Virus record (IMG/VR): IMGVR_UViG_3300020404_002094
Span: 1-64,000 of that record
Strand: one strand, 5' to 3'
DNA: 64,000 nucleotides
Origin: a virus
The notes under the pieces are model-generated. The model ran no database searches. It was not told the DNA's origin and worked only from the letters and a program-made list of their open reading frames with translations. The position numbers were made by a program, and so were the translations under genes. Below, piece by piece: positions 5,271-38,310 of the stretch; positions within the stretch are counted from its first letter, which is position 1, and the number at the start of each line of letters is the position of its first letter.

Positions 5271-5681
5271 ATGATGAAAAGAAACCTAATAAAAAAAATT
5301 TTAAGAGAAGAAACTACTTACGAAGTAGAAAAAAATCTTTTTCCTTATACTAAAACAGATACACATAGTTCTACTGATATTGCAGTAGGTTTAATGCATA
5401 AGGCAATGAATCATTTGGCTTCTGCACTTAGAGATATAGAATCTGCAATACAATTCGCCTATGAAGCGGACACCAATAATGAAGAACTTATTGAGGGATT
5501 AGAAGATATTAGAAAATCTTTACTTCATGGTAGTGGACAAGGTGCGGGATGGAATGGTACAGAAGAACATGATAATATAATTAATGAATTAGGTTCATTA
5601 ATTGAAAAGTATAGTGACGGTAACGATAACTTTAATCTAAATGGTTCTCACGATCAGAAAGCTCCTGAAGGTACTCCTTAA
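5271..5681 (+). CDS. Small protein with candidate capsid-targeting tag
   Basis: 136 residues with two adjacent ATGs; the second (5274) gives MKRNLIKKILREE, the short basic-amphipathic start shared in style with other tagged genes of this phage. A cut after a Glu of 'ILREE' would release a ~123-residue acidic protein. The body has a helical segment (AMNHLASALRDIESAIQFAY, then EGLEDIRKSLLHGSG) and no recognisable catalytic motif. The only plus-strand gene between minus-strand neighbours, it carries its own ATATTTAT promoter and ends in a 50-bp tail-to-tail overlap with the oxygenase gene. Function unknown; head-internal location is inferred from the tag. Confidence 0.7.
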   Translation: MMKRNLIKKILREETTYEVEKNLFPYTKTDTHSSTDIAVGLMHKAMNHLASALRDIESAIQFAYEADTNNEELIEGLEDIRKSLLHGSGQGAGWNGTEEHDNIINELGSLIEKYSDGNDNFNLNGSHDQKAPEGTP

Positions 5682-6558
5682 TCATATTTACCCCATCATC
5701 AATAGTTTTAAATGATTTATCAGGTAAAAATGCTTTTTTTCCTATAATTACTGCAGGTAAAAAATCACTACCAACTTTTTTTGAAAAGGATTCATATAAT
5801 ACTTCATTTTCTTTATCATCTGTATCTATCTCTTTAAATTCTATATTAGATTCTTTAAGTTGGTTTTTTAAATTGTCACAGTGTGGACAACCTTTCATAC
5901 TGAATACTATTGGTACTGTTTTCATAATTATTTTTTCTGTATCTTTTATTTCTTTATTATGGCGACGTTCATATTTGTTTATTATAGGTTCAATTGCGAA
6001 TAAAATCAATAGTTTAAAAAAACTTTTTACCATTAAAAAAAAGTTTTTCTTTTTATTAAGTCTTACATTTATTGTATATCTAACACCACTTTTTAAAGGT
6101 AATGCTCCATGCCAACTCTTTATTTTTCTACCTGAAAATAAAAGAGCGTTTCCCACACCAAATTCTGAAGCATGTGCAGTTTTTTTCAACAACGGAAATA
6201 CAGTACCACTACCTTCATAATTATCATTAATAAAAATTAAAATGGTATAATCATCTCCATCGTAATGATGGGGCATAGAAGGCGCATCTTTAGTATATCT
6301 AAGACCGGCAGATCTTGTTACGTTATAATCTTTTAATTTTGGTATTTTTTTAATCTTATTTACTATAAGTTTATGTATTTCAGGAAATGTATCATTTAAT
6401 GTAGATTCATAAACTGAAAGTCTAAAACTTCCATGATTTACAGTTAGTCCGAATTGATGTAAATTAGTTTCGAATAAATTCTCTATTTTTTTTGCTTCTT
6501 CTTTAGAAAATATATTAATATTTTCCCATACCATTTTATTTTTCCACATCATTTTCAA
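5632..6558 (-). CDS. 2OG-Fe(II) oxygenase fused to glutaredoxin
   Basis: 308 residues in one uninterrupted frame. Residues 1 to ~185 look like a prolyl-4-hydroxylase-type 2-oxoglutarate/Fe(II) dioxygenase: the iron-binding H98-x-D100, the 'GSGTVFPLL' turn, distal H150 in 'SWHGALPL', and the following Arg in SGVRYT that would bind 2-oxoglutarate. Residues ~185-210 form a hydrophobic/basic linker (FFKLLILFAIEPI). Residues ~215-300 are a glutaredoxin/thioredoxin-fold domain with redox motif CPHC (C224, C227) and 'GSDFLPAVIIG' in place of the usual cis-Pro loop. The substrate of the oxygenase is unknown; phage members are proposed to modify proteins or nucleobases. The start overlaps the end of the helicase gene by 23 bp, suggesting translational coupling. 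An internal ATG before the redox domain could also give a free glutaredoxin. Confidence 0.85.
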   Translation of the reverse strand: MKMMWKNKMVWENINIFSKEEAKKIENLFETNLHQFGLTVNHGSFRLSVYESTLNDTFPEIHKLIVNKIKKIPKLKDYNVTRSAGLRYTKDAPSMPHHYDGDDYTILIFINDNYEGSGTVFPLLKKTAHASEFGVGNALLFSGRKIKSWHGALPLKSGVRYTINVRLNKKKNFFLMVKSFFKLLILFAIEPIINKYERRHNKEIKDTEKIIMKTVPIVFSMKGCPHCDNLKNQLKESNIEFKEIDTDDKENEVLYESFSKKVGSDFLPAVIIGKKAFLPDKSFKTIDDGVNMIKEYLQELSDRENHLD

Positions 6559-8353
6559 TCTTTTTAATAAATTCTTCTATAATATTTTCTTCACCCATAA
6601 TAGTTCCGATGATTTTCTTTTTTTCATTTAAAATATCCCACACTAATGTGTCTATTGTTTCATCTATTAACATATAATATATATTAACTGTTTTATTTTG
6701 ACCTATCCTATATGCTCTATCTTCCGCTTGTTCATGATTTCCCGGTACCCAGTCTAATGAATTCATAATTACTATCTCTGCAGCAGTTAAGGTTAATCCT
6801 ACACCGGCAGCCTTTATTTGTCCTACGAAAACTTTACAATTATCATCTTCTTGAAATCTATCAACCGCCAATTGTTTTTGTTTATCTGACATTCCTCCCC
6901 TTATACAAACACACTTATCTCCAAAATACCTAATAAACGCATCCATTTCGTCATTGAAGTTACAAAATATAATAGTTTTTTTATTTAGTTCTAATGCTTC
7001 TTCTACTTTTTCTATAGTATATGGAACAGTTTCCATAGCTATAAAAGTTCTTAACAATGTAGCTTCTACTAAATCTCTTGCGGGATTACCTTTTTTACCA
7101 TCTACTTTACGTTGTGCCAAATATTCTTCCCACACATTTTTATAACCGTCTACATTTTGTAATTCTAAATAAATTGGTGTTATAAGTTTATCTGGTAAAT
7201 CTAATACTTCTTCTTTTTTACGTCTTAAGATAGTTCTTTTAGTTTTTTGTGCTAATTCTTCTAAATTAGAAGCACCTTTAGTTACCCAAACAAACCTACC
7301 ACCTTTTTTAAATCTTACTCCTTCACAATAAGTTCTAGCATAATGTACCCAATTATTTGCAACCCCACATTCTATTATGGATAAAAGATTATAATAGTCC
7401 ATTGGTCTATTAGCGATGGGTGTACCTGTTAACAACCAACATCTTTTAGGAGAAAATCTTTTTGAAATATCTTTTAAAATTTTACCCCTTATACTTTTAT
7501 GATTTTTTACAAAGTGTGCTTCATCTAATATTATTAGATCTGGATTAAATTCAACTATTTCTCTTCTTAATTCCCAGTCTTCATATTTTTTACCTCTTTC
7601 TTCTATAGTATGAAAATTTTTTAATATATCATAATTTATAATAGTAAATCTATCTGGATCCCAATGTTTTCCCTTTATTATGGAGACATCTTCACAAAAG
7701 TTTTGTACTTCTCTCATCCAATTTATTTTTAAAGATGCTGGACAAACAATTAAAACTCTTTCTGCATTACATTCTAATGCAGCAACTATAGATTGATATG
7801 TTTTACCTAAACCCATATCATCCGCCAAAATACATTTTTTATTTTTTAATAAAAATTCTATACCTTCTTCTTGATGTTTAAATGCTCTCCAACCCCTTTT
7901 ATCTAAATCTATGTACTTTTCAAAGTCTACTTCTACTTCTACTTCCTCATAGTGAATATCTTCAATTAATTGAGTTTTAGGTATCCATATTAATTTAACT
8001 TCTTTTTGATTTTTATAAAATTTACATATTGCGTGTATTGCTTTATCACTTTCTGCCAATATAGTTTCTACTAATATTTTATTAATTGGTGTAGTCAATT
8101 TATACTCTTCTTTTAATTGATTTGAAAAATATTCAGTGATTTCTACAATTTTATTAATATTTTTAGGTATGTAATTAAAATAATTAGTAATATATTTTGT
8201 TTGACTATTAGTTAAAAAATATGATTTTTCGGTTTGATATTTTTTCTTTATATAATTAATATAGGGATTCTTACCATTATATGTAACTAATAGTTCTTCA
8301 ATTTTCAATCCTTTAATGTCTTTTATATCTAACATATTTCTAATTATAATCAT
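6536..8353 (-). CDS. SNF2-family DNA helicase/translocase
   Basis: 605 residues. Superfamily 2 SNF2-type motifs appear in order: I DDMGLGKT (~176-184), II DEAH (~274-278), III LTGTPI, IV TIIFCNF, V 'AAGVGLTLTAA' and VI EDRAYRIGQ. The RIGQ form of motif VI is diagnostic of SNF2/SMARCAL1-like translocases rather than T4 UvsW. It probably remodels replication forks or branched DNA, possibly filling the UvsW niche. The N-terminal ~150 residues are Lys/Ile-rich with no named domain. ATG at 8353 is chosen because it lies 12 nt from a palindromic promoter motif; an ATG at 8335 is possible. Downstream it couples to the oxygenase gene. Confidence 0.93.
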   Translation of the reverse strand: MIIIRNMLDIKDIKGLKIEELLVTYNGKNPYINYIKKKYQTEKSYFLTNSQTKYITNYFNYIPKNINKIVEITEYFSNQLKEEYKLTTPINKILVETILAESDKAIHAICKFYKNQKEVKLIWIPKTQLIEDIHYEEVEVEVDFEKYIDLDKRGWRAFKHQEEGIEFLLKNKKCILADDMGLGKTYQSIVAALECNAERVLIVCPASLKINWMREVQNFCEDVSIIKGKHWDPDRFTIINYDILKNFHTIEERGKKYEDWELRREIVEFNPDLIILDEAHFVKNHKSIRGKILKDISKRFSPKRCWLLTGTPIANRPMDYYNLLSIIECGVANNWVHYARTYCEGVRFKKGGRFVWVTKGASNLEELAQKTKRTILRRKKEEVLDLPDKLITPIYLELQNVDGYKNVWEEYLAQRKVDGKKGNPARDLVEATLLRTFIAMETVPYTIEKVEEALELNKKTIIFCNFNDEMDAFIRYFGDKCVCIRGGMSDKQKQLAVDRFQEDDNCKVFVGQIKAAGVGLTLTAAEIVIMNSLDWVPGNHEQAEDRAYRIGQNKTVNIYYMLIDETIDTLVWDILNEKKKIIGTIMGEENIIEEFIKKIENDVEK

Positions 8354-8365
8354 TTTTTTGCAAAG

Positions 8366-8379
8366 TATAAATATTTATA
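8366..8379. promoter_or_regulatory. Palindromic bidirectional ATATTTAT promoter
   Basis: TATAAATATTTATA is a perfect 14-bp palindrome containing ATATTTAT on both strands. It sits 12 nt from the ATG of the minus-strand helicase (8353) and 12 nt from the ATG of the plus-strand connector gene (8392), so one site can serve both divergent genes. Confidence 0.6.
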
Positions 8380-8391
8380 GGTAAAAGATAC

Positions 8392-8913: not shown

Positions 8914-8918
8914 TTAAA

Positions 8919-10237: not shown

Positions 10238-10238
10238 T

Positions 10239-13387: not shown

Positions 13388-13415
13388 AAGGTGGGATTAT
13401 TCCCACCTTTTTTTT
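13388..13415 (+). terminator. Rho-independent terminator after the sheath gene
   Basis: AAGGTGGGA / TCCCACCTT form a perfect 9-bp stem with a TTAT loop, followed by a run of T. It ends 4 nt before the next start codon. Confidence 0.9.
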
Positions 13416-13419
13416 GTCT

Positions 13420-14238
13420 ATGAAAATAAAATTAAGTCAATATCAAAAAAGTCTACTTTTGGAATTTAAAAAAAGAGCATATTCATTTGATTGGGACGAT
13501 AATATTTTATTTATGCCCACTAAAATTTATTTAGAGAAAAAGGTAGGTGATGGATGGATACCTGTTTTAGTAGGTACTGAAGAATTTAGAGAAATTAGGA
13601 ATAGAGTTGGTAAAGATTATAGATATGAAAAAGATGACTTATATTATGCGTTTAAAGATTTCAGAGATTATGACGCATTTATAAGAGACACAAAAGAAGC
13701 ATTAAGAAAAAAATCTTTTGGTCCCAGTTTTGATAAATTTAAAGAAGCATTATTATATGGTAATGACTTCTCTATAATAACTGCTAGAGGAAACCCACCT
13801 AAAGCAATTAAAGATGGTATAAAAGTGATAATTGACACTCTTTTCACTGAAGAACAAAAAGAAAAAATGTTATCTAACTTACATGGTACATCTATAGAAC
13901 AATATCTAAACTTACAGGACTACTATCCTGTGACTTCTGACGAGTTTGTAGAAGAATTTGATACTGATGTAAGTGTAACAAACCCAGAAGTCGGTAAAAT
14001 GATTGCATTAAAGACTTTTGTAGATAGAGTAGTTAGTGCAGTTAAAGAAATGAAAGATAATCCAGAATATAATGGTATGAGTATAGGTTTTAGTGATGAT
14101 GATTTAGGTAATATTGAGAGTGCGGAGAAGTACATTGAGGAGAAATTAAAAAAATTATATCCTGATGTTAAATTTTTAGTATATGATACATCTGATCCTG
14201 ATAACCCTAAAAAGAAACGAATAATAATTAAAAAATAG
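13420..14238 (+). CDS. HAD-like phosphatase-fold protein
   Basis: 272 residues from the ATG at 13420; an in-frame TTG two codons earlier lies in the terminator T-run and is less likely. HAD motifs: I FDWDDN (D24, D26), II 'SIITARG' (T121), and IV 'GFSDDDLGN' (D226-D228), with a Lys (K234/K240 region) between. Motif I lacks the usual DxDxT ending (DWDDNIL) but keeps both aspartates, so phosphatase or phosphotransferase activity is plausible. The first ~15 residues (MKIKLSQYQKSLLLE) resemble the short N-terminal tags of neighbouring head-targeted proteins. Substrate unknown. It sits between sheath and tube genes, unusual for a soluble metabolic enzyme. Confidence 0.8.
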   Translation: MKIKLSQYQKSLLLEFKKRAYSFDWDDNILFMPTKIYLEKKVGDGWIPVLVGTEEFREIRNRVGKDYRYEKDDLYYAFKDFRDYDAFIRDTKEALRKKSFGPSFDKFKEALLYGNDFSIITARGNPPKAIKDGIKVIIDTLFTEEQKEKMLSNLHGTSIEQYLNLQDYYPVTSDEFVEEFDTDVSVTNPEVGKMIALKTFVDRVVSAVKEMKDNPEYNGMSIGFSDDDLGNIESAEKYIEEKLKKLYPDVKFLVYDTSDPDNPKKKRIIIKK

Positions 14239-14306: not shown

Positions 14307-14717
14307 ATGAGAATTAAAAAAAACGATAAAGTAATTAAGTTAACTGAAAATGACTTAAAAAGAATTGTAAAAAGAGTATTAACAGAACAAAATTATGATT
14401 ATGAATATATAGAAAATCTAGATGACGCAAAAAAACTATATAAATTAATACTAGATGCGATGGGAGTGTTTATGGATGATGAGGCGATTATTGAAGCTGC
14501 GTTTATGGCATTCGATAAAAATCCCGATTTATATTATGAAGCGAATGAAATCTTTAAAAATGATAATGATTATCTTGCTGGAGATAGTTTTAAAGGGTCA
14601 GTCATGTTTGATGGAGCAGACAGTTTATTACATATGGTTAAATTAAAAATGGATACAAATAAAATATATCATAAAAAATCTATTGCGCGTATAGCTCATG
14701 AAAATAATTTTAAATAA
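14307..14717 (+). CDS. Tagged internal virion protein candidate
   Basis: 136 residues. The start contains 'VIKLTENDLKRIVKRVLTEQ', a basic amphipathic helix ending in VLTEQ. Cleavage after E27 would fit the (L/I)-x-E rule of T4-type prohead proteases and leave a ~109-residue acidic body. Near-identical starts ('LTESDL-RIVKRVI-E') are common in uncharacterised proteins of marine phages. The body is helical, with no catalytic motif seen. First gene of a two-gene unit with 14729. Location inside the capsid is inferred, not shown. Confidence 0.75.
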   Translation: MRIKKNDKVIKLTENDLKRIVKRVLTEQNYDYEYIENLDDAKKLYKLILDAMGVFMDDEAIIEAAFMAFDKNPDLYYEANEIFKNDNDYLAGDSFKGSVMFDGADSLLHMVKLKMDTNKIYHKKSIARIAHENNFK

Positions 14718-14728: not shown

Positions 14729-15172
14729 ATGGAAAAGAATATAAATAACGAAATTGAAAGAATGAAATCATTATTTAATGAGGAAAGACTTTACGGTAAT
14801 ATAGAAAATGGTAAAGAAAATTTAAATGAAGGTTTAAAGTCTACATTAAAAGGTATTGGTGGAATGTTTAGAGGTACTGGATATAGTTATACTAAATATG
14901 CTTATGAATTATCTGGTGCGTTAAAAGAACTTAATGAAGAATTAGAAGAAACTATTAATGAGGTTGAAAAAATAATAGATAAATCAAATGAATCTAAAAT
15001 GAGTAATGACGCATATGATAGATTAACTCTTCATGTGGGAGATGCGATAGATACGTATAAAATGGCTATTGAGACTAATGAGATTATTATAGAAGATTTA
15101 GATTTTTCTGTTAGTTCTAATAGAGAAGACGAAAGGGCACAAGATAACCCTACTTCACAATTAGAAAGATAA
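14729..15172 (+). CDS. Tagged internal virion protein candidate, twin tag of 18953
   Basis: 147 residues. The first 25 residues (MEKNINNEIERMKSLF, then N-EERLYGNI) are nearly the same as those of the 293-residue protein at 18953, while the remainders are unrelated. A second LNE site follows at ~37. After a Gly-rich segment (KGIGGMFRGTG) comes a long acidic helix with coiled-coil character (ELNEELEETINEVEKIIDK). Read as an N-terminal targeting module on a small helical cargo. It follows the 14307 gene by 11 nt without its own promoter motif. Confidence 0.75.
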   Translation: MEKNINNEIERMKSLFNEERLYGNIENGKENLNEGLKSTLKGIGGMFRGTGYSYTKYAYELSGALKELNEELEETINEVEKIIDKSNESKMSNDAYDRLTLHVGDAIDTYKMAIETNEIIIEDLDFSVSSNREDERAQDNPTSQLER

Positions 15173-15829: not shown

Positions 15830-18800
15830 ATGAAAATTATAATTTCCGAAACACAGTATAAAAAAGTTTTTGATAATGATTTTTTAATTATTAGTGAACA
15901 AGAAGTAGATGGAATATCTGGTGCGGCTATCTCAACTCCAAAGTTGGGAAGTGGATGGATTCAAAATAGTACTGCACCAGGAAAAATTAATTATGGTATT
16001 AACGAGTTAAATACCTATGTCGCATGTAGACCAAAGGGGAATATAGTTGCAGGAATACCTGGTCCAGATTGGGACTGGTGTAAAGCTAGACAATATGGTG
16101 ATCCTCATATGGGTGCAGTAACTTATGAATATAACGGAAAAATGGTAACCATTAAAGATTTTAATAGTAGAGCGGAAGATGATGGAAGATATTCTTATGA
16201 TGTTGGGGGAAATATTCTTTCTTCTACATATGATGTACTATTAAACCCTAAAAGTGAAAAAAATATTATAAACAACGCTATTGGGACATATAATAGTGTT
16301 TATAGTAGTTGGAATAGGTTACGAAAACTAGGTAATTGGGACGGTTTAGCATGTAATTTACTCACATTTAGTAATTCTAAAAGTAAATTAGAAGAAGTAT
16401 TTAATAATCCTTATAGTAGTGGAATAGGTATTGGTAATACCAATTTATTGTGGCCAGGTGACTTAATAAAAGAATATTTTAAATTAAAAACAGTTGTTGA
16501 AGAAGATATTTTGAGTATTTGGGGTCAAGAAGCATTTAAAAAGGAACAAATAGAATTAGGTGAAAGGTATAAATTATCCCTAAAAAGGTGGAAAGAAGAT
16601 TATAAAAAATGGAAACAACAATTCGGTGAGAAATATAATACCATACAAAACTCCATTAATGATATCATAAATAGTAAAAATAATGCTTTTGCAATAGAAG
16701 ATTATAGAAATAATTCATGGAGAGATCAAGACAGTAATGATCCATCTAAGTACAGACCTAATTATGTTAATAATTTACTAACTAACAATACTTACCAAAG
16801 TGATTTAGAAAATGATCCTAAACCAGTTGATTGGTATGCATTACTTAAAGAATTAGAATCACAAATAGGTGAAATTAAATTACCTAGAAAGTTAACTAAA
16901 AAAGAACCTATACAGAAATTCCAAAATTGGTTAGACAAAAATTACCCAACTCAGTGGACTACAACAGGTAAACCTTTAAATAAAAAAACACCGGGTTATG
17001 GAACATTTGGGCCACAAACTACTAAAGCGTGGAAAAAATATGGACCGGTTTATTATTATCAATTAAATGGTAAAATTAAACCGCCACCAGTAAAACCTAA
17101 AGAACCAGAAATAAGAGATTTAGCACAAAGAAATATGGGTGAAAAAAGTAATTTAGAACAAATGATTGAAACTTATTTACATATTATAGACGCCTCAGCA
17201 AGTCATAATGAAAGGTTTGAGAGTCAAAGTGCGAGTAAATATAAAGAATATTGTAGTAAACCCGTAGGAGATTTTAGAAACCCATCAGATGGTAAAGTAA
17301 GATGGAATCCAAATAGTAGGAACACCTGGAAAACGGACTGGTTTGATGAATATGGACGCCCAAAACAAGTGGTTGCCGAATCAAAAAAACATAAAATAGA
17401 TGAACAAATAATAGTAGTCCCACCTGTACCTTATTATGATGTTGAAAAATCATTCGATTATAAAGATAATGATAAAAATACTTTTAATCTTGTGTGTAGT
17501 CAAAAGAATCTAGGTGGTGTATGGTGGTACAGTGGAGGTAAAAATTTAGGAACTTGTGGTTGTGTTAATAACCCAACTAATTCATTTAAATTAAATGGAT
17601 CAACTATTAATATGTCTAAAATTGTTGAGTATAGTGCGGTAGAGAATGATGTACGAAGTTTATGGGAAAAAACTTCTGATTGGGCTAGTAAGTGTGTAGG
17701 TGATTGGCATTGTATTGCAGATGTAGCATCTATTGCAGTATTATTTATACCCGTACCAGGATTAAATGTGGCATTATCTGCTGCGATTGATGGTGTGAGT
17801 GCTGCTGGGTATGTAATTGAACAAGATGAGGGTTGGGAATTAAATGCGGGATTAACTTTAGTAGGTGCATTGTTTAGTGGAGCAGAAGCGATGAAATTTA
17901 CAAATAAAGCATTAAAAGGTGGTTTAAAGAATGTAAAATGGACTAAAGCTTTAGGTGAAATAACAACGGAGTTAAATGATAAAGCATTTAAGAATACACT
18001 TGAGGGTATGACTAAATCAGAAGCGGCGGATGTATGGAGTAAAAAATTAAGAGATTTAGTTTCAGAATATTCATCTAAGGAAATAAAACAATTATCTGAT
18101 GTGATAGACGCTTTTCAAAAAATGCCAAATAAAGCGGTAGACGGTTTGGAAAAAATAATGAGAAGTATGAAAAACTTAACTCCAAAAGAAAAAGAAATTT
18201 TACAACAGTTAACAAAAAAAGGAGTTAAAAAAGATAAACTTAAACCATTTCTAGATGATTTAATAAAGGTAGATTATGACATTAAAAAAGTTATAAAAAA
18301 ATATATACCTAAGTTTAGTAATAAAGAAGCTTTAATACAAGCAACTTTATTTGGGTTAGTACAAGGTTATGGAGAAGAAATTGGTAAGGCATTAAGTAAA
18401 GGTTTTGACGCATTAAAAAAGTTTACAGGTTACGATATAGATAATAAACTTACTTCTAAAGAAGATATTAATAAAAAAGACGCTTCTTCATTAGCGATAA
18501 AACAAAAAATAGAAGATTTAGCTAGTTATTATTTATTAGCACATATGATAGATATTGAAACTAGAATAGGTGTAGGTAATTTACTAAGTAAATATGATAT
18601 TAAAGTAGAAAAAAATGTAAGAGATATAGTATTTAATGGGATGGAAAGTATAATAGGTAAAGTTATTTTAGAAAAAACAGGTAAATGGTTGAGAGAAATA
18701 ACAGATACTGCCACTCAAATGGAAAAGGAAGGTAAACCTACAGAAGAAATTAAAACTTTTATTATAACAAAATATGATGAAATATTAGAATTATTAGAAA

Positions 18801-18922
18801 ATGCCCCCGAACAAGATAAATTAAAAGAGTTAGAAAAAAACTTAGAAATAGAAAATAATAAAAACGAAGAATTTAGTGAGGCAGATAAAGAAAATGCCAA
18901 ACATTGGGGTATTGAATTGTAA
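15830..18922 (+). CDS. Large tagged virion protein, PG-binding-like and pretoxin-like
   Basis: 1030 residues. Residues 1-24 end in LIISEQ, a candidate prohead-protease site. Residues ~352-405 resemble a peptidoglycan-binding-1 fold ('IQKFQNWLDKNYPTQW', then 'GYGTFGPQTTKAWKKYG'). Residues ~625-687 are a hydrophobic Gly/Ala/Pro stretch (ADVASIAVLFIPVPGLNVAL, GYVIEQDEGWELNAG, LTLVGALF) with the D-x-PG-x-A-x-D-x-G-x-A order of pretoxin or translocation regions. The C-terminal third is helical, Lys/Glu-rich. Together these suggest a head-packaged protein that acts at the host envelope during DNA entry. No catalytic residues were identified. It has its own ATATTTAT motif. Confidence 0.75.
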   Translation: MKIIISETQYKKVFDNDFLIISEQEVDGISGAAISTPKLGSGWIQNSTAPGKINYGINELNTYVACRPKGNIVAGIPGPDWDWCKARQYGDPHMGAVTYEYNGKMVTIKDFNSRAEDDGRYSYDVGGNILSSTYDVLLNPKSEKNIINNAIGTYNSVYSSWNRLRKLGNWDGLACNLLTFSNSKSKLEEVFNNPYSSGIGIGNTNLLWPGDLIKEYFKLKTVVEEDILSIWGQEAFKKEQIELGERYKLSLKRWKEDYKKWKQQFGEKYNTIQNSINDIINSKNNAFAIEDYRNNSWRDQDSNDPSKYRPNYVNNLLTNNTYQSDLENDPKPVDWYALLKELESQIGEIKLPRKLTKKEPIQKFQNWLDKNYPTQWTTTGKPLNKKTPGYGTFGPQTTKAWKKYGPVYYYQLNGKIKPPPVKPKEPEIRDLAQRNMGEKSNLEQMIETYLHIIDASASHNERFESQSASKYKEYCSKPVGDFRNPSDGKVRWNPNSRNTWKTDWFDEYGRPKQVVAESKKHKIDEQIIVVPPVPYYDVEKSFDYKDNDKNTFNLVCSQKNLGGVWWYSGGKNLGTCGCVNNPTNSFKLNGSTINMSKIVEYSAVENDVRSLWEKTSDWASKCVGDWHCIADVASIAVLFIPVPGLNVALSAAIDGVSAAGYVIEQDEGWELNAGLTLVGALFSGAEAMKFTNKALKGGLKNVKWTKALGEITTELNDKAFKNTLEGMTKSEAADVWSKKLRDLVSEYSSKEIKQLSDVIDAFQKMPNKAVDGLEKIMRSMKNLTPKEKEILQQLTKKGVKKDKLKPFLDDLIKVDYDIKKVIKKYIPKFSNKEALIQATLFGLVQGYGEEIGKALSKGFDALKKFTGYDIDNKLTSKEDINKKDASSLAIKQKIEDLASYYLLAHMIDIETRIGVGNLLSKYDIKVEKNVRDIVFNGMESIIGKVILEKTGKWLREITDTATQMEKEGKPTEEIKTFIITKYDEILELLENAPEQDKLKELEKNLEIENNKNEEFSEADKENAKHWGIEL

Positions 18923-18952: not shown

Positions 18953-19834
18953 ATGGAGAAAAAAATTAATGAGGAAATTGAACGAATTAAAAGTCTTTTT
19001 ACTGAAGAGAGACTTTATGGTAATTTAGTTAAGGAACAAGTTACCAATCCCGATTCTAATGGTGATTTTGTAATAGATACCACAGAATTTACTGCATCTG
19101 GTAATGACATAACTGCAGATGAGGCTAAATTATTCGTTAATGCCTATCATACCGCAAACCCAACTAGAAACACTGAAGTAGGACATTGTATTAATCAATC
19201 AGTAATTCAAATGATGATTAAAAAATTTCCTAGATTGGTGGAAAGTCCTATGAATTATGGAGTAACAAGTTTAGGGGGTAAATGTTACCTATACTCCAAC
19301 AATAGAGGTACAATTAGTTATCCAGCACAAATAACTAAATTAGAATTTTGGCAAAATGATTGGATTACTTTTTATGTAACTCTTAAGACACCTATTGATT
19401 TATCAACTGAAGATAGTTATAAAAAAACATTCAATAAAAATTGGAGTAATACTAAAGCGGTAACTCCCGGCACAATAGAAATGAGGGTAAAACTCAATGA
19501 GACTGCTAACCGAACAGAAAAGATAAAATATTTACAATATAAAGCACCTATAACTAACTTAGGTACTACTGCTACTACATCAACATACGGTCAAATAACT
19601 TTTATGAATTTTTATGATGAAAGTGGTAACAAAAAAACTATTCAGTCATTAATTGATAAAATTGATGAATCAAGTGTATACGGTGGATGGATGGCCGGTG
19701 ATGGTACAGGTAGTACATATCAATATGATCCTGATGGTGTAGATATGGATGGTTTATTACAAGATACAAATACTACAAATTTAACTGTTAGTGGAGGAGA
19801 TATTAAAGAAATGGTAGTTAACTTAATTAGATAA
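18953..19834 (+). CDS. Tagged virion protein candidate, twin tag of 14729
   Basis: 293 residues. The first 25 residues (MEKKINEEIERIKSLF, then TEERLYGNL) nearly duplicate the start of the 14729 protein; a second site, VKEQ, follows at 26-29. After it comes a linker (NPDSNGDFVIDTTEF) and an unfamiliar beta-rich domain containing 'GHCINQSVIQMMIKKFP' and 'GGKCYLYSN'. No known enzyme motif. First gene of a two-gene unit with the 867-residue tagged protein, 9 nt apart. Inferred to be head-internal; function unknown. Confidence 0.75.
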   Translation: MEKKINEEIERIKSLFTEERLYGNLVKEQVTNPDSNGDFVIDTTEFTASGNDITADEAKLFVNAYHTANPTRNTEVGHCINQSVIQMMIKKFPRLVESPMNYGVTSLGGKCYLYSNNRGTISYPAQITKLEFWQNDWITFYVTLKTPIDLSTEDSYKKTFNKNWSNTKAVTPGTIEMRVKLNETANRTEKIKYLQYKAPITNLGTTATTSTYGQITFMNFYDESGNKKTIQSLIDKIDESSVYGGWMAGDGTGSTYQYDPDGVDMDGLLQDTNTTNLTVSGGDIKEMVVNLIR

Positions 19835-19843: not shown

Positions 19844-22447
19844 ATGAAAAAAAAATTAATTTATTTAGATAAGAAAAAGTTTAACCTTATGTTAGAAAGG
19901 ATGGATAATAGAGTTAATTATGACGAATCCATAAATTTGAAGAAAAAAATTTTAATTACTGAAGGTGAAGGTGGTATTGGAAAAATAATTAGAGGTTTCC
20001 TTAATAGTGGTAAATTTGTTGCAGATGAAGTAGCGGTTGTTGCAAGAGCACTAAGTGGAGATGTTGACGAATTAAAAAAATTATTAAGAAGATTAGATGA
20101 TGACCCACAGGGTTTTAAGGTTAGTTTAAATAACTCATTAGTAGATTTAGGTGTTAGTGCAAGTGCATTAAAAGGATTAGAGAATTTTATAGATAATGTA
20201 CGTATAGTTGAGAAATCAAAACCTGAAGATGTTTATACAAATTTATTTTATAATTTATCTAAAGATGGTAAAACTGTAGATGAAGCAGTTAAAGAAATTG
20301 ATAAGTTATGGGATGATATGCCAGAAGTTTTGAAAAGAAAAACAAATGATATTGATTTCCCATTACAAGCAACCGATGATATAAGAATAAATATAATAAA
20401 AAATAGGGTTGGTATGAGTCCTAAATTACCAATGAATATTAGAATTAAGATTGGTGATGATATTGCTAAACAAGCAACAAAAGGTTTGAAAAAACTTCAA
20501 TTAGATGAGATGCTAAAAGGTGTTGAACTTAAAAGCCCAATTAGTGAGTATGTGGTATTAACTAATAAAACTAGTGGTAATCATATAATAGTACATAAAA
20601 ATAATGTTGGTGGTTTTGTGAATAAGTTTGAAATTGTCGGAAGTAATAAGTTTGAGATAAGTGATGGTGTAAGTTTTAGAGGTAAAGATGGTGATACTAT
20701 AGTAGTAATGGATGATCTTAACTTTAAATCAGGTTTAAGTGAGGAAGAGTTAGCCATATTAAAAAATGAGTTAAAAGGTGCTAATTCTATGGAGAAAACG
20801 GAAGAATTACTTGCAGAAATAATAAAGAATCAAAGATTAAATGAAAGAGCAATTGCAAAAGTTAAAAGAAATAAATATTGGGTTTATTCAATAGTAGGTA
20901 TAGAATGGGCTTTAGAAGCATTGATACAAACTATTTCTTGTATAACTAAGGAAGATGGTGAATTAAGACGTGTAAGGAAAGATAAAATGGAACAATTTTT
21001 AGATATGGAGTATGACATGGAAACAAATCCTAATACAAAATATACTGAAAAAGATTTACTTCAGTTTACTGAACCGGTGGATTTTTTGGATTGTTTTAGG
21101 ACTTTTATGAATACAGATTTAGTTGATGTAACTGACAGATATGATCCTAAAGGTTATTTTGAACATTATTTCCCCTTACCTTTATGGGGTGTAGGATCTT
21201 CAATTATAGATTATTTATTTACATTTAGTGTTGATTTACAGAGGTTACTAGGTGTGATTGATGCTAAACTGAAATCTACTATTAAACAACAAGTAAATAA
21301 ACTACTAAAAAATAAAAATTTGGTTGAGATATTAAATCACAAGTGCGAATATACTAAAGAAGAAGCTTTTAATCTGATTAAAAATGAGGGTGGGGATAAT
21401 AATGAATCAGTTAAGGATTTATCAAAAATTTTAAATGTTATAGGTGTAGATGGTGAGTTTAAAAATAATTTAGTACAAAATATACTTAGTGGAAATGAAG
21501 CGTTAGCATTAACAAAAAAGGAAGTTGATGATATGAAAGATGGTGCAACTAAGGATATTAATGTTAACGTAGATGTTTCAGGATGGGATGGAATAAAAAA
21601 TGGAAAGGGTATTGATTTAGCTTCTAAATTAATAAGAAAATGTCAAGCCACAAAGGCAGAATTAATTATTACATTATTGAACGCGGCAGGAGAAAATGAA
21701 GTTGAGAGAAAATTAAATGATTTAATATTATTTACTGATGGTTCTGTATCTAAAGATGAAATAAAAACTATGGCTAAAGATATAGGTAAGGGTAAACAAA
21801 TCGATTTGGGAAGTAAATTTACAGTTTCAAATGGTAAGAAAAACACAGAAGAAGGTATTAATTTAATGGGTTTTGCAATGAATTACGGTACACAGAGAAA
21901 AACAGATATTGAAGGACCTACTGTAGCAAGAAAATATTTTCAAGACGTAAATAAGTTGGCTAGTGATGAATTTATAGATAAACAATTTAATGCGTTAGTA
22001 GATTATATGAAAAATGATGTGTCAGATGACAATGTAGATTCTACAACTACTCGAAATTTAGATTTAGGAGTTGTAATAAATTTTGATTTAACTTTACCTG
22101 ATTATAAATGGCAAAGTATCTTAAACAATAAAAGTGTAGAGGAGGGTTGTAATATTATGAAAGCAACTATGTATAATTTTGCTGCAAAAAGTAAATTTAA
22201 ACCCTTTATTAGTATGTTAAGTCCCGATAATGAAGGTGAATTGTATACAAAACATGAAGATGTAAATGGTAATCCTTCATTTCAATTTATTATAACCGAT
22301 GAAACACTTACTGAATTAGCTAAATTACCTGTTAAAGGTTGGTGTGATAAAGTTACTGCTAATGGTGAAAGAAAAGGTAAGACAAAAAGTGACTGTACTT
22401 CCGAATTAATAGAATTCGCCAAAACTTTACCTTGCTACGTAGAGTAA
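19844..22447 (+). CDS. Large tagged virion protein of unknown function
   Basis: 867 residues. The basic N-terminus (MKKKLIYLDKKKF) runs to 'LKKKILITEGEGG' at 33-42, the longest tag of the set, with a candidate cut after E40. The body is mostly helical and charged. A more hydrophobic middle part ('YWVYSIVGIEWALEALIQTI' and 'PLPLWGVGSSIIDYLFTF', about residues 345-465) could contact membrane. Scattered Cys near the C-terminus (GWCDKV, SDCTS, LPCYVE). No recognised catalytic motif. The nearby tag-bearing genes make a DNA-ejection or head-internal role the best guess. Confidence 0.7.
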   Translation: MKKKLIYLDKKKFNLMLERMDNRVNYDESINLKKKILITEGEGGIGKIIRGFLNSGKFVADEVAVVARALSGDVDELKKLLRRLDDDPQGFKVSLNNSLVDLGVSASALKGLENFIDNVRIVEKSKPEDVYTNLFYNLSKDGKTVDEAVKEIDKLWDDMPEVLKRKTNDIDFPLQATDDIRINIIKNRVGMSPKLPMNIRIKIGDDIAKQATKGLKKLQLDEMLKGVELKSPISEYVVLTNKTSGNHIIVHKNNVGGFVNKFEIVGSNKFEISDGVSFRGKDGDTIVVMDDLNFKSGLSEEELAILKNELKGANSMEKTEELLAEIIKNQRLNERAIAKVKRNKYWVYSIVGIEWALEALIQTISCITKEDGELRRVRKDKMEQFLDMEYDMETNPNTKYTEKDLLQFTEPVDFLDCFRTFMNTDLVDVTDRYDPKGYFEHYFPLPLWGVGSSIIDYLFTFSVDLQRLLGVIDAKLKSTIKQQVNKLLKNKNLVEILNHKCEYTKEEAFNLIKNEGGDNNESVKDLSKILNVIGVDGEFKNNLVQNILSGNEALALTKKEVDDMKDGATKDINVNVDVSGWDGIKNGKGIDLASKLIRKCQATKAELIITLLNAAGENEVERKLNDLILFTDGSVSKDEIKTMAKDIGKGKQIDLGSKFTVSNGKKNTEEGINLMGFAMNYGTQRKTDIEGPTVARKYFQDVNKLASDEFIDKQFNALVDYMKNDVSDDNVDSTTTRNLDLGVVINFDLTLPDYKWQSILNNKSVEEGCNIMKATMYNFAAKSKFKPFISMLSPDNEGELYTKHEDVNGNPSFQFIITDETLTELAKLPVKGWCDKVTANGERKGKTKSDCTSELIEFAKTLPCYVE

Positions 22448-23465: not shown

Positions 23466-24671
23466 ATGAAAAATATTGAATATTTTAATAATATTATTAA
23501 AGAAGTTATTATTGATATAGATAACTTAATAGTTGAGCAGAGTGTTAGTGTTTCTGGTTATGATGCTTTAGGTGATAGAAGTGTTAGTGATGCTGATAAA
23601 ATTCAAACTATTATAGATGTTCAAAATCAAAAACCACCACAAAATCCTATAAAAATAGAAGAAATTTATAAAGATATGTCTAATGGGAAATGGCCGGATG
23701 GGTTTCCTAGTCAATCTGAATTGGAACAACATTTTCAAAATACTACAAATACTACCTATACTATTGAAGATGGTAAATATAAAGGTAAACAACTTACTTC
23801 AGGTGTTTATGATGCTTTAAGAATCAGTAGAGGTATAAAAAGTGCTAAGTCTAGAGTAAGGTCAGGACAAAAAAAGAAAGGTAAAGGACATGCTTCTGTG
23901 TGTTATTGTGTTAGATTTGCCAGACAATTTTTAACTGATCCAGATGATCTTGTAGAGGAAGAGAATAAATGTCCACAAGGAAATAAAAGCGCATGTATGA
24001 AAAAATGGGAAGATGATTTAAACGCGTGGTTGCCAGCACAAAATGAATATACTAAAAATTTAACTGAAGAATATAGACTAGATTGTATTTCAAGATATAA
24101 AAATGAAATGTTTGATTTAGATACTAGAAATTTATACGTTCATAATAATCCTAATATAACCAATACTCCTTATTGTGAAAAATGGGATAATGATATTAAA
24201 GACCTTTTTGATGGTATAGAATCAGATCTTTCAGGTTTACTAAGTAAATTTTTTAGGGTAAAAAATCAAAAACAATTAAAAGTTAACGCTAATAAAGGTT
24301 CTGTTTCTGATAAATTAATAGTTTATAGTAATATAACAATAAAATATGAAAATAGACCTACGGATTATAATGATAGTGGTGCAGGAGTTCCTCCTAGAGA
24401 AAATAACACCACTTTCCCTACTTGTGTAGCTAATTCAAGTAATATTAAAAAAGGTGATGAGGTTAAATATGAGGTAATGACTGCAAGTCCATTAAATAAA
24501 GGTAAAACCGTGCAATTAAAAGATCCTGATGGAAAATATTTATTAATTACTTTTTCTAGTACAGAAAGAGGTGAGAACCAAAATGGGAATTTAAAATTTT
24601 GCGATTCCAATGGTAAACCCGTATGTTCACAAATAGGTTGGAATGGTAAGATAACAAGACTAGAAATGTAA
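23466..24671 (+). CDS. Tagged virion protein candidate
   Basis: 401 residues. The first 25 residues end in NLIVEQ, another (hydrophobic)-x-E-Q site like those at 14307 and 15830; the tag itself is acidic/hydrophobic rather than basic. The body has a basic segment (SRVRSGQKKKGKGHASVCYC) with two close cysteines, several further Cys (CPQGNKSACMKKW, YCEKW), and a C-terminal beta-rich region with 'GKTVQLKDPDGKYLLITFSS'. No known fold recognised. Directly upstream of the tape measure (6 nt) and co-transcribed with it. Confidence 0.7.
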   Translation: MKNIEYFNNIIKEVIIDIDNLIVEQSVSVSGYDALGDRSVSDADKIQTIIDVQNQKPPQNPIKIEEIYKDMSNGKWPDGFPSQSELEQHFQNTTNTTYTIEDGKYKGKQLTSGVYDALRISRGIKSAKSRVRSGQKKKGKGHASVCYCVRFARQFLTDPDDLVEEENKCPQGNKSACMKKWEDDLNAWLPAQNEYTKNLTEEYRLDCISRYKNEMFDLDTRNLYVHNNPNITNTPYCEKWDNDIKDLFDGIESDLSGLLSKFFRVKNQKQLKVNANKGSVSDKLIVYSNITIKYENRPTDYNDSGAGVPPRENNTTFPTCVANSSNIKKGDEVKYEVMTASPLNKGKTVQLKDPDGKYLLITFSSTERGENQNGNLKFCDSNGKPVCSQIGWNGKITRLEM

Positions 24672-30599: not shown

Positions 30600-33500
30600 A
30601 TGGGAGAAGAAGAAAAAGATGTTGAGGTTAAACAAGTTGGTGCGGGTTTAATGTTAGTAGATCCTAACCCTTCAGGTAGAAATGTTTTACCTGCAGAAGA
30701 CATGTTTATTTATATTAGTTTGACTGCGGAAGAACGTAATAGGGGGGTGGCAACTATTGGTGAAAATGAAAATGAGTTTGAAGAGAGTAGATTTGGTATT
30801 ATTGAATTTGTATCAACAGAAGTAAAATACAATCAAGCTGGTGAACCACAAAAAAATATAATGGGAGATGTCAAATCTTATGCAACTACAAGTTATACTA
30901 ATATTGGGGGTATTCAAAACAGTTTAGGTAGTGGATTACTAGAAGGTTTCGGTATAACATCTATTAACATAAAATACAATACTAGTTTAATACCACAAGT
31001 AGACATTGATTTTACAGATGTAAGGGGTAGTGGGCTATTTGATGTTATAGAACAAGATAATAGAAAATCACCATATAGTATATTTTTTAAAATGCCTTAT
31101 CCTATTTTTAATTTGACTGTAAAGGGATATTTTGGTAAACCTGTATCATATTGTTTAAATTTGGTTAACTGGACATCAAAATTCGATGCTGGAACTGGTA
31201 ATTTTAATATTTCCGCAAATTTTTTAGGGTTTCAACAAGCATTTCTTGCAGATATTACAATAGGAGATATAATTGGTACACTTAATACAGAAATAGGATT
31301 AAAAAATTTAACTGAGTTACCACTCACAGTTGGGACAATTAAAAATGGAACAAGTGATGGAACTCAAACAATAGATACACCTTCATTAGATGATTTTGTG
31401 AAACAATTAAGTAAATTACAGATAGACTTAGAAGAATTAAAAATAGAAAATACTAAATATAAAGAACTACAAATATTAAATACACAGGAGAAAAAAGTAG
31501 AAGAAATATTAAGCTTTATTGGTAGTCCAATACCAAAAGCAAACATCGATACTTATAAGGACAAAACTAGTGCACCACCTTACTTATCACAATTAAATTC
31601 ACCAAATACAACAAATACAAGTGGAATTAAATCAGTAAATTTAACTTTAGGTGAAAATTATTTGTCTATAAGAGATTTATTATTTGTTAAGTCTACAATG
31701 ATTCCATCATTAAACTTATATATGAATGATTTAAATAATCTTATTACAGACTATGTTAATTTTTATGGTGAAAATAAAAGTAGTCTTAGTAATAATGATA
31801 ATATCGCTAAAGGAGTATTAGGTGGATCAGCAACGAAAAATACAGAGTACTGGAGATTTTCCGAAAATACAGATGGTGAAAACGTAAATTACGATGAGTT
31901 TACATTAAATTTTGGATCCGGTGCTGGTCAAAGTGGTTTCTTTTCTCCTTCAGAATTAAATAATATTAATAATCAAATTGATTTTTTTATAGATTTTGAA
32001 ATTTCTAAAAAAGGACAATTAACTTTACTTGAATTTATTGATGAAATAAGGCGTGAAGATAGTATATTAACTAAAAATAATCCAAGCGAATATGATGAAG
32101 CTAATAATAACTTTGATGTATCTCAAATTGTTATAAACGACTATTCTAAAGACACTAATAATAATGAGCCTGGTAACTTAAATAGTGGTTTTGGTAACGC
32201 TACACCTGGAATAATATTAGACTTTAGGGCAATCAGAATGATGGTGAATGATATGTTAATTAATATTCGTAAATCAAAAAAGAAAAAAGAGGAAAAATTA
32301 GTAGAAGAATTAAATAATTCTTTATCGGAAAGATTAGGGTATAAACCTACAATAGGTACAGTATTTCAGATACTATGTAATAATGCACAAGCTTTTTTAA
32401 TGACAATATTTGATATTGGTTATTCTGCAGAAAGGAAGAACAAAAAAAGACAAAAAGCATTAGAGTCTGCTGGTGTCACCAGTGATTTACAATTAAAAGA
32501 AGAATTTGATTTTAAAAGTCAAACAATATATGCGTTTCCTTCTTTGTTTGTTAAACAAGATGGAGGTTTTGTAGAAAAATTTATAGGATCAAAAGAAATA
32601 TTTAAACCTGAAGATACGGATGCTAGAACTGCTTTTCCTGAAATTAAATTTATTGAAAATTTAATTGAAGCTTTATTAAAAGAAGAAAAAAGTTTATTAG
32701 GTATTACTAAACAAGTTAATAAAGCTAAGGGTAGTAGTAGTGGTAATGATACAGATAACTGGATACCAATAAATCCAATAGACTGTGAAAAAAATCCGTT
32801 TTATTTGTTAAATGTTGCACAAACAAAAACCGCAGAAGGAAAAGATGTTTTATATGAAAAATTTATAAAAGCTTTAGTAGATAGATTTGTAATATTAAAA
32901 TATTATTCAACCGCAACAGGAGATTTTGGTACTATGAGTAAATATGCTACTTGGGATGGAATTTGGGCTAAAATATCCTTTATTGATAAAGAAAGTAAAG
33001 ATACTATTTACCAAATTTTAAATCAATTTTTAAAAGACAATCCATTAAATTTAACAGATAATACTAATAAAATAACTAAAATTGTTAACGAAAGAATAAA
33101 AGAATTAAATAGTGTCGAATACCAACAAAGTAATGATGAGGACACCATTTATAAGATAGATAATCCAAAAATGAGTAAACTTATTTTAGGTAATAGTATC
33201 AAAGGTAAAAAAATAATTAGAAATAAGGTAAATTTAACGGAAGAACAAAATATTGAAAATGTTAAAGAAGTTTTTGATAAGTCAGTAATTGATAGTAGTG
33301 TTGTTAAATATACGCAATGGATTAATTATATTGCTAATCGTAATTTATCTTATACATGTTGGTTAGAAAAACAAAGTAAATTATTATTAAAAAAAGCAGG
33401 TAAAGAAGGTAGTCTAACTTTTTCACTAAAAAGTGATATTACATTAATTGATGGGGGAATCAATCCTGCAGACAATCCAGTACCAAATACACCTATAGTT

Positions 33501-36302: not shown

Positions 36303-36334
36303 TTTGTTTTTAACATAAAAAAATAGTATATTTG
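36303..36334 (+). promoter_or_regulatory. Bacteroidota-type promoter of the 36339 cluster
   Basis: TTTG at 36303-36306, a 20-nt spacer, then TATATTTG at 36327-36334. The ATG at 36339 lies 5 nt after the -7 box, where transcription should begin, so the first gene is predicted to be read from a leaderless mRNA. The -33 box abuts the stop codon of the 1900-residue gene. Confidence 0.75.
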
Positions 36335-36338
36335 TAAT

Positions 36339-36962
36339 ATGTATATTGGAAATATAGTAACTAAAGATAAATTTTCAGATAAAAAATATAATGTTTGTGA
36401 AAATATTTCACAAATAAACGATAATTTTATAACATTAATTATTGGTTGGGATGCAACTAAAGAAATTTATGGTGAAGAAAATGTTTCAATACTAAATAAG
36501 AAAATTGATGATAAAACTTTTTGGACTTTTAATAATAATGAAAGAAAAGTAGATTTAGAAATAGACTTAAAAAAATTTCAACACAGATGTTTGGATTTTA
36601 TAGATAATAAAAATAGTTATGTTTTTGTTGATTTAATACATGATAATCCTAAAAAAATAAGAAAAATAATAAGAAAAATATATTCATTAAATAATATTAT
36701 TACAATTATTAATGATGATATGGTATATTTATACGATAAAAATTTAGTTTTTGGATTAGACTTAAAAATATTATTATTTTTAGGTTTAGATATAGATAAA
36801 ATTAAACATAAAATAAATCAACTTTCTAAGGTAACTTTATCTGAAAATGAAATATTTAATAAATGTATAGGGTGTGTAGATTATAACAATAAAAAAATCA
36901 TACCATACATTTATAGATATGGAACAACAGACAAAAATAATCACACTAGCATCATTTGTTGA
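36339..36962 (+). CDS. Conserved phage protein of unknown function
   Basis: 207 residues, Lys/Ile/Asn-rich and acidic-basic mixed, with no signal peptide or membrane segment. Hydrophobic strands such as 'FITLIIGWDATKEIYGEEN', 'NSYVFVDLIHDNP', 'NIITIINDDMVYLYDKN' and 'LVFGLDLKILLFLGLDIDKI' suggest an alpha/beta Rossmann-like fold, but no nucleotide-binding loop is visible. Similar proteins, unnamed, occur in marine T4-like phages to my knowledge. It begins an early-type unit and overlaps the next gene by 44 nt. Confidence 0.65.
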   Translation: MYIGNIVTKDKFSDKKYNVCENISQINDNFITLIIGWDATKEIYGEENVSILNKKIDDKTFWTFNNNERKVDLEIDLKKFQHRCLDFIDNKNSYVFVDLIHDNPKKIRKIIRKIYSLNNIITIINDDMVYLYDKNLVFGLDLKILLFLGLDIDKIKHKINQLSKVTLSENEIFNKCIGCVDYNNKKIIPYIYRYGTTDKNNHTSIIC

Positions 36963-37332
36963 TGAGGATAGAATAGATGGTTTCAGTGATTATATAGAAA
37001 AAAGGTTTAAAATACCTAAAGAAAAATTATTTATTTATACTTCCCCGCAAGAAATAGGTAAAAAAATTTTAACATTTAGATTATATTTAAGGGATGGAAA
37101 AAAAATAAATACTAAATCATTTTTCCCTACCACTATCATAACACACAAAAAGGGAGAGTGTTTTTATACTATTAATGCACTTAATAAATTGATTGAAAGT
37201 GAAAGTAATGGAGAAACAGGTAATTTAAATCATAAAGAACATAAGATAGAATGGGATAAATACCAAAATAAAATGTTGATAACTAAAAAAAATGAATTAA
37301 CTATTATAGATATTAAACGTAATTTTTCTTAA
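36919..37332 (+). CDS. Conserved phage protein of unknown function
   Basis: 137 residues, starting 44 nt inside the preceding gene in another frame; both frames look coding in the overlap. It begins MEQQTKIITLASFVDEDRID, an N-terminus I associate with unnamed proteins of large marine phages, and has 'THKKGECFYTINALNKLIES' near residue 75. No known catalytic motif. The spacing and shared promoter tie it to 36339. Function not recognised. Confidence 0.7.
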   Translation: MEQQTKIITLASFVDEDRIDGFSDYIEKRFKIPKEKLFIYTSPQEIGKKILTFRLYLRDGKKINTKSFFPTTIITHKKGECFYTINALNKLIESESNGETGNLNHKEHKIEWDKYQNKMLITKKNELTIIDIKRNFS

Positions 37333-37339
37333 AATTCTT

Positions 37340-37347
37340 ATATTTAT
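37340..37347 (+). promoter_or_regulatory. ATATTTAT-type promoter
   Basis: ATATTTAT followed by AATAAAAG, 16 nt upstream of the small gene at 37364. It marks a switch from the host-like promoter of 36339 to the ATATTTAT class. Confidence 0.55.
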
Positions 37348-37363
37348 AATAAAAGAGCTTAAT

Positions 37364-37546
37364 ATGGATAATAAAAAAGACATACAAAGAACTAAAGATT
37401 TAGAAGACTCACTTAATGAATTTCTTAAAGTTAATGAAGAAAAAGAGTGTGAAGGGGAAGAATGTTTAATTAATGATGGTAAAGAAATTGTGGAAAGAGT
37501 TAATAAAGTTTATAAAACTACTGACGGAAGACAATTATTAATATAA
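37364..37546 (+). CDS. Small acidic protein, unknown
   Basis: 60 residues. Highly charged with a Glu-Cys pair (EKECEGEECLI) and a final 'ERVNKVYKTTDGRQLLI'. No fold recognised. It is 5 nt ahead of the acidic tagged protein at 37552 and shares its ATATTTAT promoter. In T4 the small genes 67 and 68 precede the capsid cluster and encode prohead core proteins; that analogy is only positional. Confidence 0.6.
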   Translation: MDNKKDIQRTKDLEDSLNEFLKVNEEKECEGEECLINDGKEIVERVNKVYKTTDGRQLLI

Positions 37547-37551
37547 AAAAA

Positions 37552-38310
37552 ATGGATAAGAAAAAATTAATATCGGAAGAGTTAAAAAGACATATGGAAC
37601 TATTGGAATATACGTTTTATATGGAAGATAAAGTTGACAGTGATGATACTGACGAACTTTTATTAGGTGCTAAACAACTTTATGAACAAGATCCTGTTCC
37701 TGATGGTGGTGATACAGAAAGTGGAGAAGGTACAGAAGAAGAGACTACTGAAGACCCATTTGCAGAAGAAGGTGGTGAAGAAGAAACTGTAGATTTAGAT
37801 ACTGAAGAAGGATCAGGTGAAACAGATCCATTTGCAGGTGAAACAGATCCATTTGCAGGTGAAGAAGGTATGGAAGTGGAAGATGAATTCGCAACTGAGG
37901 AAGGTGGTGAAGAAACTGTCGAAGTAGATGTTACTGATATAGTAGATAAGGCAGAACAAACTAGAACAGAAATTGAGGGTATGACTGCTAAAATGGATGA
38001 ATTATTAGGTAAATTAGGTGATTTAGAAGGTAAGGTAGGTGATATGGATCAAGTTATTAATAAAATAGATGGATTAGAAAAAGAAATAGCAGATAGAAAC
38101 CCAACACCGGTAGAAAGATTAGAAATGAGATCGATGGATTCTTTTCCATATAGTGTTTCCTTAACTGATTATTGGTCAGATAAAGAAGGATATGATGTTG
38201 GGGGTAAAGAAGAGGAAGAATACACCATAACTCAAAAAGACGTAGATGATTATAGTGCAACAGAAATAAAAAATTCTTTTGACTATGATAAGGATGACGA
38301 AGATTATTAA
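37552..38310 (+). CDS. Acidic protein with tag, candidate prohead core/internal protein
   Basis: 252 residues. The start (MDKKKLISEELKRHMELLE) and a KQLYEQ site at 41-46 fit the tag pattern. The next ~90 residues are nearly all Glu/Asp/Gly/Thr, with a perfect 21-bp tandem duplication (GETDPFA twice, 37816-37857). Then comes a helical heptad-rich region (MTAKMDELLGKLGDLEGKV) and a C-terminal segment with 'NPTPVERLEMRSMDSFPYS'. Acidic, repetitive, helical proteins near head genes are typical of scaffold or prohead core components. A terminator follows at once. Confidence 0.7.
   Translation: MDKKKLISEELKRHMELLEYTFYMEDKVDSDDTDELLLGAKQLYEQDPVPDGGDTESGEGTEEETTEDPFAEEGGEEETVDLDTEEGSGETDPFAGETDPFAGEEGMEVEDEFATEEGGEETVEVDVTDIVDKAEQTRTEIEGMTAKMDELLGKLGDLEGKVGDMDQVINKIDGLEKEIADRNPTPVERLEMRSMDSFPYSVSLTDYWSDKEGYDVGGKEEEEYTITQKDVDDYSATEIKNSFDYDKDDEDY
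37816..37857 (+). repeat. Perfect 21-bp tandem duplication
   Basis: Two identical 21-bp units (37816-37836 and 37837-37857), each encoding GETDPFA in the acidic part of the 37552 protein. Being identical at third positions, the duplication looks recent, or is kept by slippage. Confidence 0.85.

Follow-up and report, generated by a model that had tools for sequence, protein, structure and literature searches.

Candidate capsid-targeting peptides, much expanded in number, on otherwise unrelated proteins of large T4-like phages

Tagged head proteins in described phages and candidates in the window

In phage T4 a prohead protease cuts after L/I-x-E, N-terminal propeptides measure 7 to 65 residues, and the first ten residues of the internal protein IPIII suffice for targeting to the head (PMC9026906). 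Of the few internal proteins known in T4, those with described roles act against host restriction (IPI), modify host RNA polymerase (Alt) or allow infection of the strain ECOR17 (IPIII) (PMC3012670, PMC9026906, PMC9391042), and C-terminal processing of Alt by gp21 has been reported as well (PMC9026906). In the Salmonella phage SPN3US, N-terminal propeptides are likewise removed in the head, with 14 cleavage sites in nine substrates established by mass spectrometry (PMC10052503), and in phage P1 thirty N-terminal residues of DarB direct a reporter to the capsid (PMC9024508). The principle is already known from T4 and, for one protein, P1.

Here we describe a set of short, mostly N-terminal peptides (tags) in a group of large T4-like phages. 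We consider it likely, by analogy with T4, that these are T4-type capsid-targeting propeptides, much expanded in number, that form several tag families, are swapped between proteins and occur within polyproteins. Like the T4 internal proteins processed by gp21 (IPI, IPII, IPIII and Alt), the tagged proteins combine short N-terminal peptides with unlike bodies, the peptides end in hydrophobic-x-Glu, and the phages encode gp23 and an S77 protease. Unlike T4, the present phages have up to 44 profile matches per record, several unlike tag families and a Gln after the site, and they also place tags inside fused proteins and at C-termini. None of 56 T4 ORFs reached 8 bits with our tag profiles, although the two T4 stretches scanned contain IPI, IPII and IPIII, and the likeness of one family (class F) to T4 tags is by eye, so that kinship with the T4 tags is by analogy. 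SPN3US shares the N-terminal propeptides, whose removal is predicted here; its propeptides differ in being mostly of 111-254 residues (two of 20-24), and 42 of its head proteins are reported uncleaved (PMC10052503). As described, DarB is one protein and not a family of interchangeable tags, and is set apart on that account (PMC9024508). Our literature search, with preprints and most subscription journals outside its coverage, returned no description of such a repertoire, of this number of tag families, of swapping, or of internal and C-terminal positions.

The window, a 64,000-base stretch of DNA, is the first part of a 79,938-base virus record (G000). It carries a T4-like gene set that includes DNA polymerase, a UvsX-like recombinase, a DnaB-like helicase, sheath, tube, and baseplate hub and wedge proteins. 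Near relatives in IMG/VR, ranked by sheath identity, are L003 (G001, 100%), L005 (G003, 99%), L011 (G004, 198 kb, 91%) and L050 (G008, 254 kb, 72%); the sheath of L004 is 99% identical to that of the window. Neither an S77 protease nor gp23 was found in the 79,938-base record, which places the head genes out of view.

An earlier note on this DNA had picked out nine genes for their N-termini. All nine ORFs are present with the starts and N-termini quoted there, 13420 being an internal ATG of an ORF with a TTG start at 13414, and the claim of more than 3000 residues of cargo is borne out (3262 for eight genes, 3534 with 13420). The note's picture of one tag family inside the tail block survives in part: the tags are there, but they belong to several families and in longer records are spread genome-wide. 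Seven expanded profiles recognise six of the nine tags (5271, 13420, 14307, 14729, 15830 and 18953, at 17-73 bits), whereas 19844, 23466 and 37552 score below 8 bits. Gene 74665, in the same record and outside the window, also scores. The nine are as follows, with a slash at the predicted cut.

5271..5309, plus strand: class D tag on gene 5271-5681, 13 residues up to LRE/E; 22.7 bits; class F tag on the G008 homolog
13420..13464, plus strand: class A tag on gene 13420-14238, 15 residues up to LLE/F; 17.3 bits; residues 1-18 below pLDDT 50; body fused elsewhere
14307..14387, plus strand: class B tag on gene 14307-14717, 27 residues up to LTE/Q; 45.6 bits; class B family
14729..14782, plus strand: class C tag on gene 14729-15172, first possible site FNE/E, second LNE/G at residue 34; 62.9 bits; class-B-like tags on homologous bodies
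15830..15898, plus strand: class A tag on gene 15830-18922, 23 residues up to ISE/Q; 33.3 bits
18953..19036, plus strand: class C tag on gene 18953-19834, sites FTE/E at residue 18 and VKE/Q at residue 28; 72.2 bits; class C family
19844..19963, plus strand: possible tag (weak) of gene 19844-22447, 40 residues to ITE/G; below 8 bits; LLTEI in G004
23466..23537, plus strand: possible tag of gene 23466-24671, 24 residues to IVE/Q; below 8 bits; site conserved in the G004 homolog
37552..37686, plus strand: possible tag, a long one, on the acidic gene 37552-38310, with 45 residues up to LYE/Q; below 8 bits; start and site conserved in the G004-G008 homologs

For two of the low-scoring genes, 23466 and 37552, relatives conserve the end of the putative tag, with LIVEQ in G004 and LYEQ, LNEQ, LTEQ or ITEQ in other records; for 19844, ILITEG and the LLTEI of G004 weakly support a tagged gene. 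The 37552-38310 product is an acidic protein of 252 residues with a conserved start and an LxEQDP-like site in five other records, and it could be a core protein instead of cargo.

Pfam gave no match over cut-off for the nine window bodies or for 74665. In the AF2 model of the 13420 product, pLDDT stays under 50 over residues 1-18 and has a mean of about 80 or higher over residues 21-170. The acidic motifs of this body recall, in our estimation, a HAD phosphatase, an assignment that found no support from Pfam, PDB sequences or Foldseek (0 matches at E 0.001 or better). The model of 15830 was set aside (mean pLDDT 44), as was the PHROG assignment of 14729 to a GP16.7-like protein (E 2.7e-4).

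Enrichment of the tags at protein N-termini

A bare hydrophobic-x-Glu in residues 2-46 occurs in 40 of the 52 proteins of the window's record, against a mean of 32.8 (sd 3.2, maximum 43) in 500 shuffles; this pattern is too degenerate to serve as evidence and was rejected. Hydrophobic-x-Glu-Gln is enriched at N-termini (7/52; shuffle mean 1.8, maximum 6). So are three of four family-specific motifs (2-3 of 52 proteins against 0-0.1 expected), the fourth being weak (4/52; shuffle mean 1.1, maximum 6), all four having been composed after the sequences had been seen.

A profile check in related phages came out in favour of the tags. With first profiles seeded from G000, G001 and G004, 47 of 562 N-termini in the test records G005-G008 reached at least 8 bits, and the controls gave 2 matches in 2364 interior windows and 8 in 5620 shuffled N-termini; since test and seed records are related, part of these matches are orthologs of seeds. 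One of the 2 interior matches is a clear tag inside a fused protein. The seven expanded profiles, whose seeds include peptides from the scanned records themselves, matched 100 of 817 N-termini at 8 bits or more (15/3484 interior windows, 10/4085 shuffles) and 94 at 12 bits or more (4 interior windows, 1 shuffle). Six of the 100 score below 12 bits, and the interior rate at 8 bits predicts about 3 to 4 false matches among the 100. Matches are most numerous in the 254-kb G008 (44 of 267 proteins), with 7/53 in G000, 15/175 in G004, 12/106 in G005, 14/110 in G006 and 8/106 in G007.

We also counted, independently of any profile, the proteins whose N-terminus has a 14-mer in common with that of another protein while the bodies are unrelated. 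In G008 there were 30 of 267, against 4 of 185 for a control at residues 61-104. Smaller records gave lower counts (G000 2/53, G004 5/175, G005 3/106, G006 3/110), and G007 gave 2/106 against 2/90 in its control. The first halves of two control phages, phi14:2 (0/55) and crAss001 (0/44), yielded none, the 2 14-mer pairs of crAss001 being related proteins, and the tag profiles matched nothing in these halves. The cultured Flavobacterium phage immuto (NC_055915), with annotated gp23 and prohead serine protease, behaves like the tag-bearing phages: 12 of its 183 proteins qualify by this count, against 0 of 121 in the control, and 8 of the 10 pairs are tag-like by eye. It differs in its tag sequences, the profiles finding 3 of 183. 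A cultured phage with the same habit makes the idea open to testing; a paper on phages of immuto's host strain (PMC7077304) does not mention mass spectrometry.

A tblastn search of a phage collection with a 23-residue tag gave no match, so short a query having little power, and the E. coli genomes searched gave none. Several G008 genes, for example 11074, 15334, 21384 and 26047, share another repeated N-terminus (LNxIVxxLVDDT-like) that lacks the Glu site and is perhaps a shared domain rather than a tag.

Tags as peptide modules and their predicted cleavage site

Confirmed loci in viral contigs number 253 for class B and 94 for class C, and we took the best 80 of each, some of which share a record. 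The tag starts no more than 25 residues from an in-frame ATG in 78 of the best 80 class B loci and 72 of the best 80 class C loci (150/160 together). The best 80 of the 253 class B loci yield 62 non-identical proteins that fit the pattern, and these fall into 39 unrelated body families; a short end peptide common to unlike bodies is what a T4-type tag would give. Between families the class B tag is on average 70% identical, a figure that partly reflects selection of the loci by tag, and the next 21 residues are 10% identical. Column entropy rises from 0 at the Glu to 0.7 bits at the residue that follows it (Gln in 69/77) and to 3.4-3.9 bits beyond. The conserved Leu is written with five codons and the conserved Thr with four. 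This sharp end of conservation, together with the varied codons, identifies the unit as a peptide ending at Glu-Gln. Judged by their sequences, the tags are interchangeable peptide modules of several families.

The end of the module can be compared with the capsid protein's own propeptide, which in T4 ends at FLTE/A at residue 65. By eye from an alignment, the corresponding ends are LLTE/A in G001 and G004, LLNE/S in G008, LINE/A in L407-L409 and IVSE/A in immuto. In class B, position P3 is I in 55, L in 20 and M in 2 of 77 sequences, the pattern having allowed I, L, V, M or T, and P2 is S in 25, N in 20, K in 14 and T in 5. Thus all 77 carry I, L or M at P3, as in an L/I-x-Glu end of the T4 type, and the predicted tag ends resemble the capsid protein's propeptide site.

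Tags and bodies do not always keep company. The body of 14729, which has a class C tag in the window, carries class-B-like tags in G008, L031 and L068 (by eye), and that of 5271, with a class D tag, has a G008 homolog (33% identity over 97 residues) whose tag is of class F. Fused proteins give a second view of the same modules. A gene of G000 outside the window (76784-78682, minus strand) joins three parts, of which the second and third match, at 37% and 52% identity, G008 proteins that are separate and each bear a class D tag; a tag precedes each of these two parts, and the G004 and G005 versions are without the middle part, the gap falling between tags. Among 58 ORFs homologous to the 13420 body, 8 from 7 records, one of which contributes two, have it as the C-terminal segment of a longer protein, with a tag-like site by eye at each junction. 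One such fusion is the 989-residue product of L004 10225-13194; set beside window gene 13420-14238, it shows a fusion gained or lost between close relatives.

Internal and terminal placements extend beyond these cases. A class C tag lies at residues 898-937 in seven ORFs of 1164-1199 residues, and tags stand at the C-terminus in L176 and L201 (residue 216 of 236), L203 (108 of 133), L068 (375 of 391) and G007_36338. Overall, 18 of 1812 ORFs of more than 120 residues have an internal or C-terminal tag of at least 14 bits. Tags in such positions agree better with a signal for processing than with one that only marks a start. Ahead of several junction or C-terminal tags lies a short K(P/x)KNES-like stretch, perhaps a second cutting site.

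Head protease, rival readings and possible cargo

The earlier note had predicted a gp21-like protease elsewhere in the genome. None is in the 79,938-base record, but near relatives have one beside scaffold-like and gp23-like genes. S77 exceeds the Pfam cut-off in 4 of 17 sheath-related records (E 4e-24 to 5e-27), and the relatives' S77 aligns with T4 gp21 at GEADHP and VSSRG, which we take to hold the catalytic residues (the His and Ser motifs of gp21). Among first-set tag-bearing records of at least 89 kb, G001, G004 and G008 have both S77 and gp23 and G005 and G006 have neither; in G007, gp23 is cut by the contig start so that only its end is present, and S77, which is not found, would lie beyond the edge. 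Twenty further tag-bearing records of at least 89 kb include 16 with S77, and gp23 is in those same 16. The 26 records together thus comprise 19 with an uncut gp23, S77 being present in 19/19, 6 with neither, and G007; this count comes from tag-bearing records only, as an RNR panel meant to supply a neutral base rate returned near relatives only. One record without S77, G027, can be compared with its twin G026, whose S77 lies about 17 kb past a shared tag, whereas G027 ends about 7 kb past that tag.

By analogy with T4, a short peptide, probably a helix, at a protein end or fusion junction would dock the cargo on the prohead scaffold core. At head maturation the S77 serine protease would then cut after the Glu of hydrophobic-x-Glu, usually before Gln, leaving the body free inside the head, from which it would be ejected together with the DNA. 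We infer cleavage after Glu, head location and ejection alike for the tagged proteins.

Some observations speak against head loading. S77 is missing from the 79,938-base record, the profiles match neither three of the nine genes nor the T4 targeting sequences, and a T4-type late promoter is not enriched. Most tagged genes of the window are interspersed with genes for sheath, tube, hub and wedge, and some of the tagged proteins have peptidoglycan-binding or peptidase domains, which would fit tail proteins too. The tags might accordingly serve, uncut, to dock proteins on the tail or baseplate, the final Glu-Gln being part of the peptide fold. We think this improbable, as many tags of G004 and G008 are far from tail genes, the sheath, tube, hub and wedge proteins of the window are themselves untagged, and the 17 of 40 window ORFs with a PHROG match include a single tagged one (14729, weak, E 2.7e-4). 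Nor does tail docking account for unlike tag families converging on the capsid protein's site.

Any kind of sorting signal could look like modular N-termini spread over many small proteins, and the tags could instead direct proteins within the host cell during infection, whether to a membrane, chaperone or phage compartment, with no relation to the head. In the genomes of 84,980 bacterial and archaeal species, however, the class B pattern gave 99 matches, of which 0 were confirmed, so that class B is no known host signal at that sensitivity; cell sorting also leaves the site match and the link to S77 unexplained, and we give it little credence. That the shared starts, which do stand at gene beginnings ahead of unrelated genes, are a by-product of recombination or a DNA translation signal with no protein role is very improbable given the five Leu and four Thr codons, the stop of conservation at one residue and the retention of tags inside fused proteins, where a start is not needed. 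Capsid-targeting propeptides are preferred over all three because unlike tags converge on the capsid site and fusions keep their junction tags, which the rivals do not explain.

The T4-type late promoter TATAAATA was present within 80 bases upstream of 3 of 100 tagged, 1 of 40 structural, 3 of 35 replication and 53 of 642 other genes, and this 80-base search gave no enrichment upstream of tagged genes.

As to cargo, a Pfam scan of 88 of the 100 tagged proteins gave PG_binding_1 (5), M23 (3), NlpC/P60 (2) and CHAP (2), with eight further families, including tyrosine-phosphatase models, of one member each. On one reading of these domains, the cell-wall enzymes among the tagged proteins may aid DNA entry; on one reading by analogy with IPI of T4, some of the small tagged proteins may counter host defences.

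Taking targeting by propeptides as the basis, we lean somewhat towards a general modular head-loading code, in which tag families at the start, at the end or between polyprotein modules would load dozens of proteins, the protease would free them, tag-swapping would recruit new cargo quickly and the tags would be a key to what a large group of uncultured phages injects. If the tags do stand for head loading, the injected proteins of many uncultured phages could be named from sequence alone (253 class B and 94 class C confirmed loci), and the question of what large phages inject besides DNA would become testable. Fusions that have tags between their modules would amount to natural polyproteins that mature inside the virus head, and each particle of a large T4-like phage group could deliver a large protein set to the next cell.

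One tag-bearing record, G023 (L166, 268,739 bases), carries S77 twice, at 31291 and 233494, with a gp23 gene close to each copy (34203 and 237186); it either contains a pair of head modules or is a chimaera assembled from two phages.
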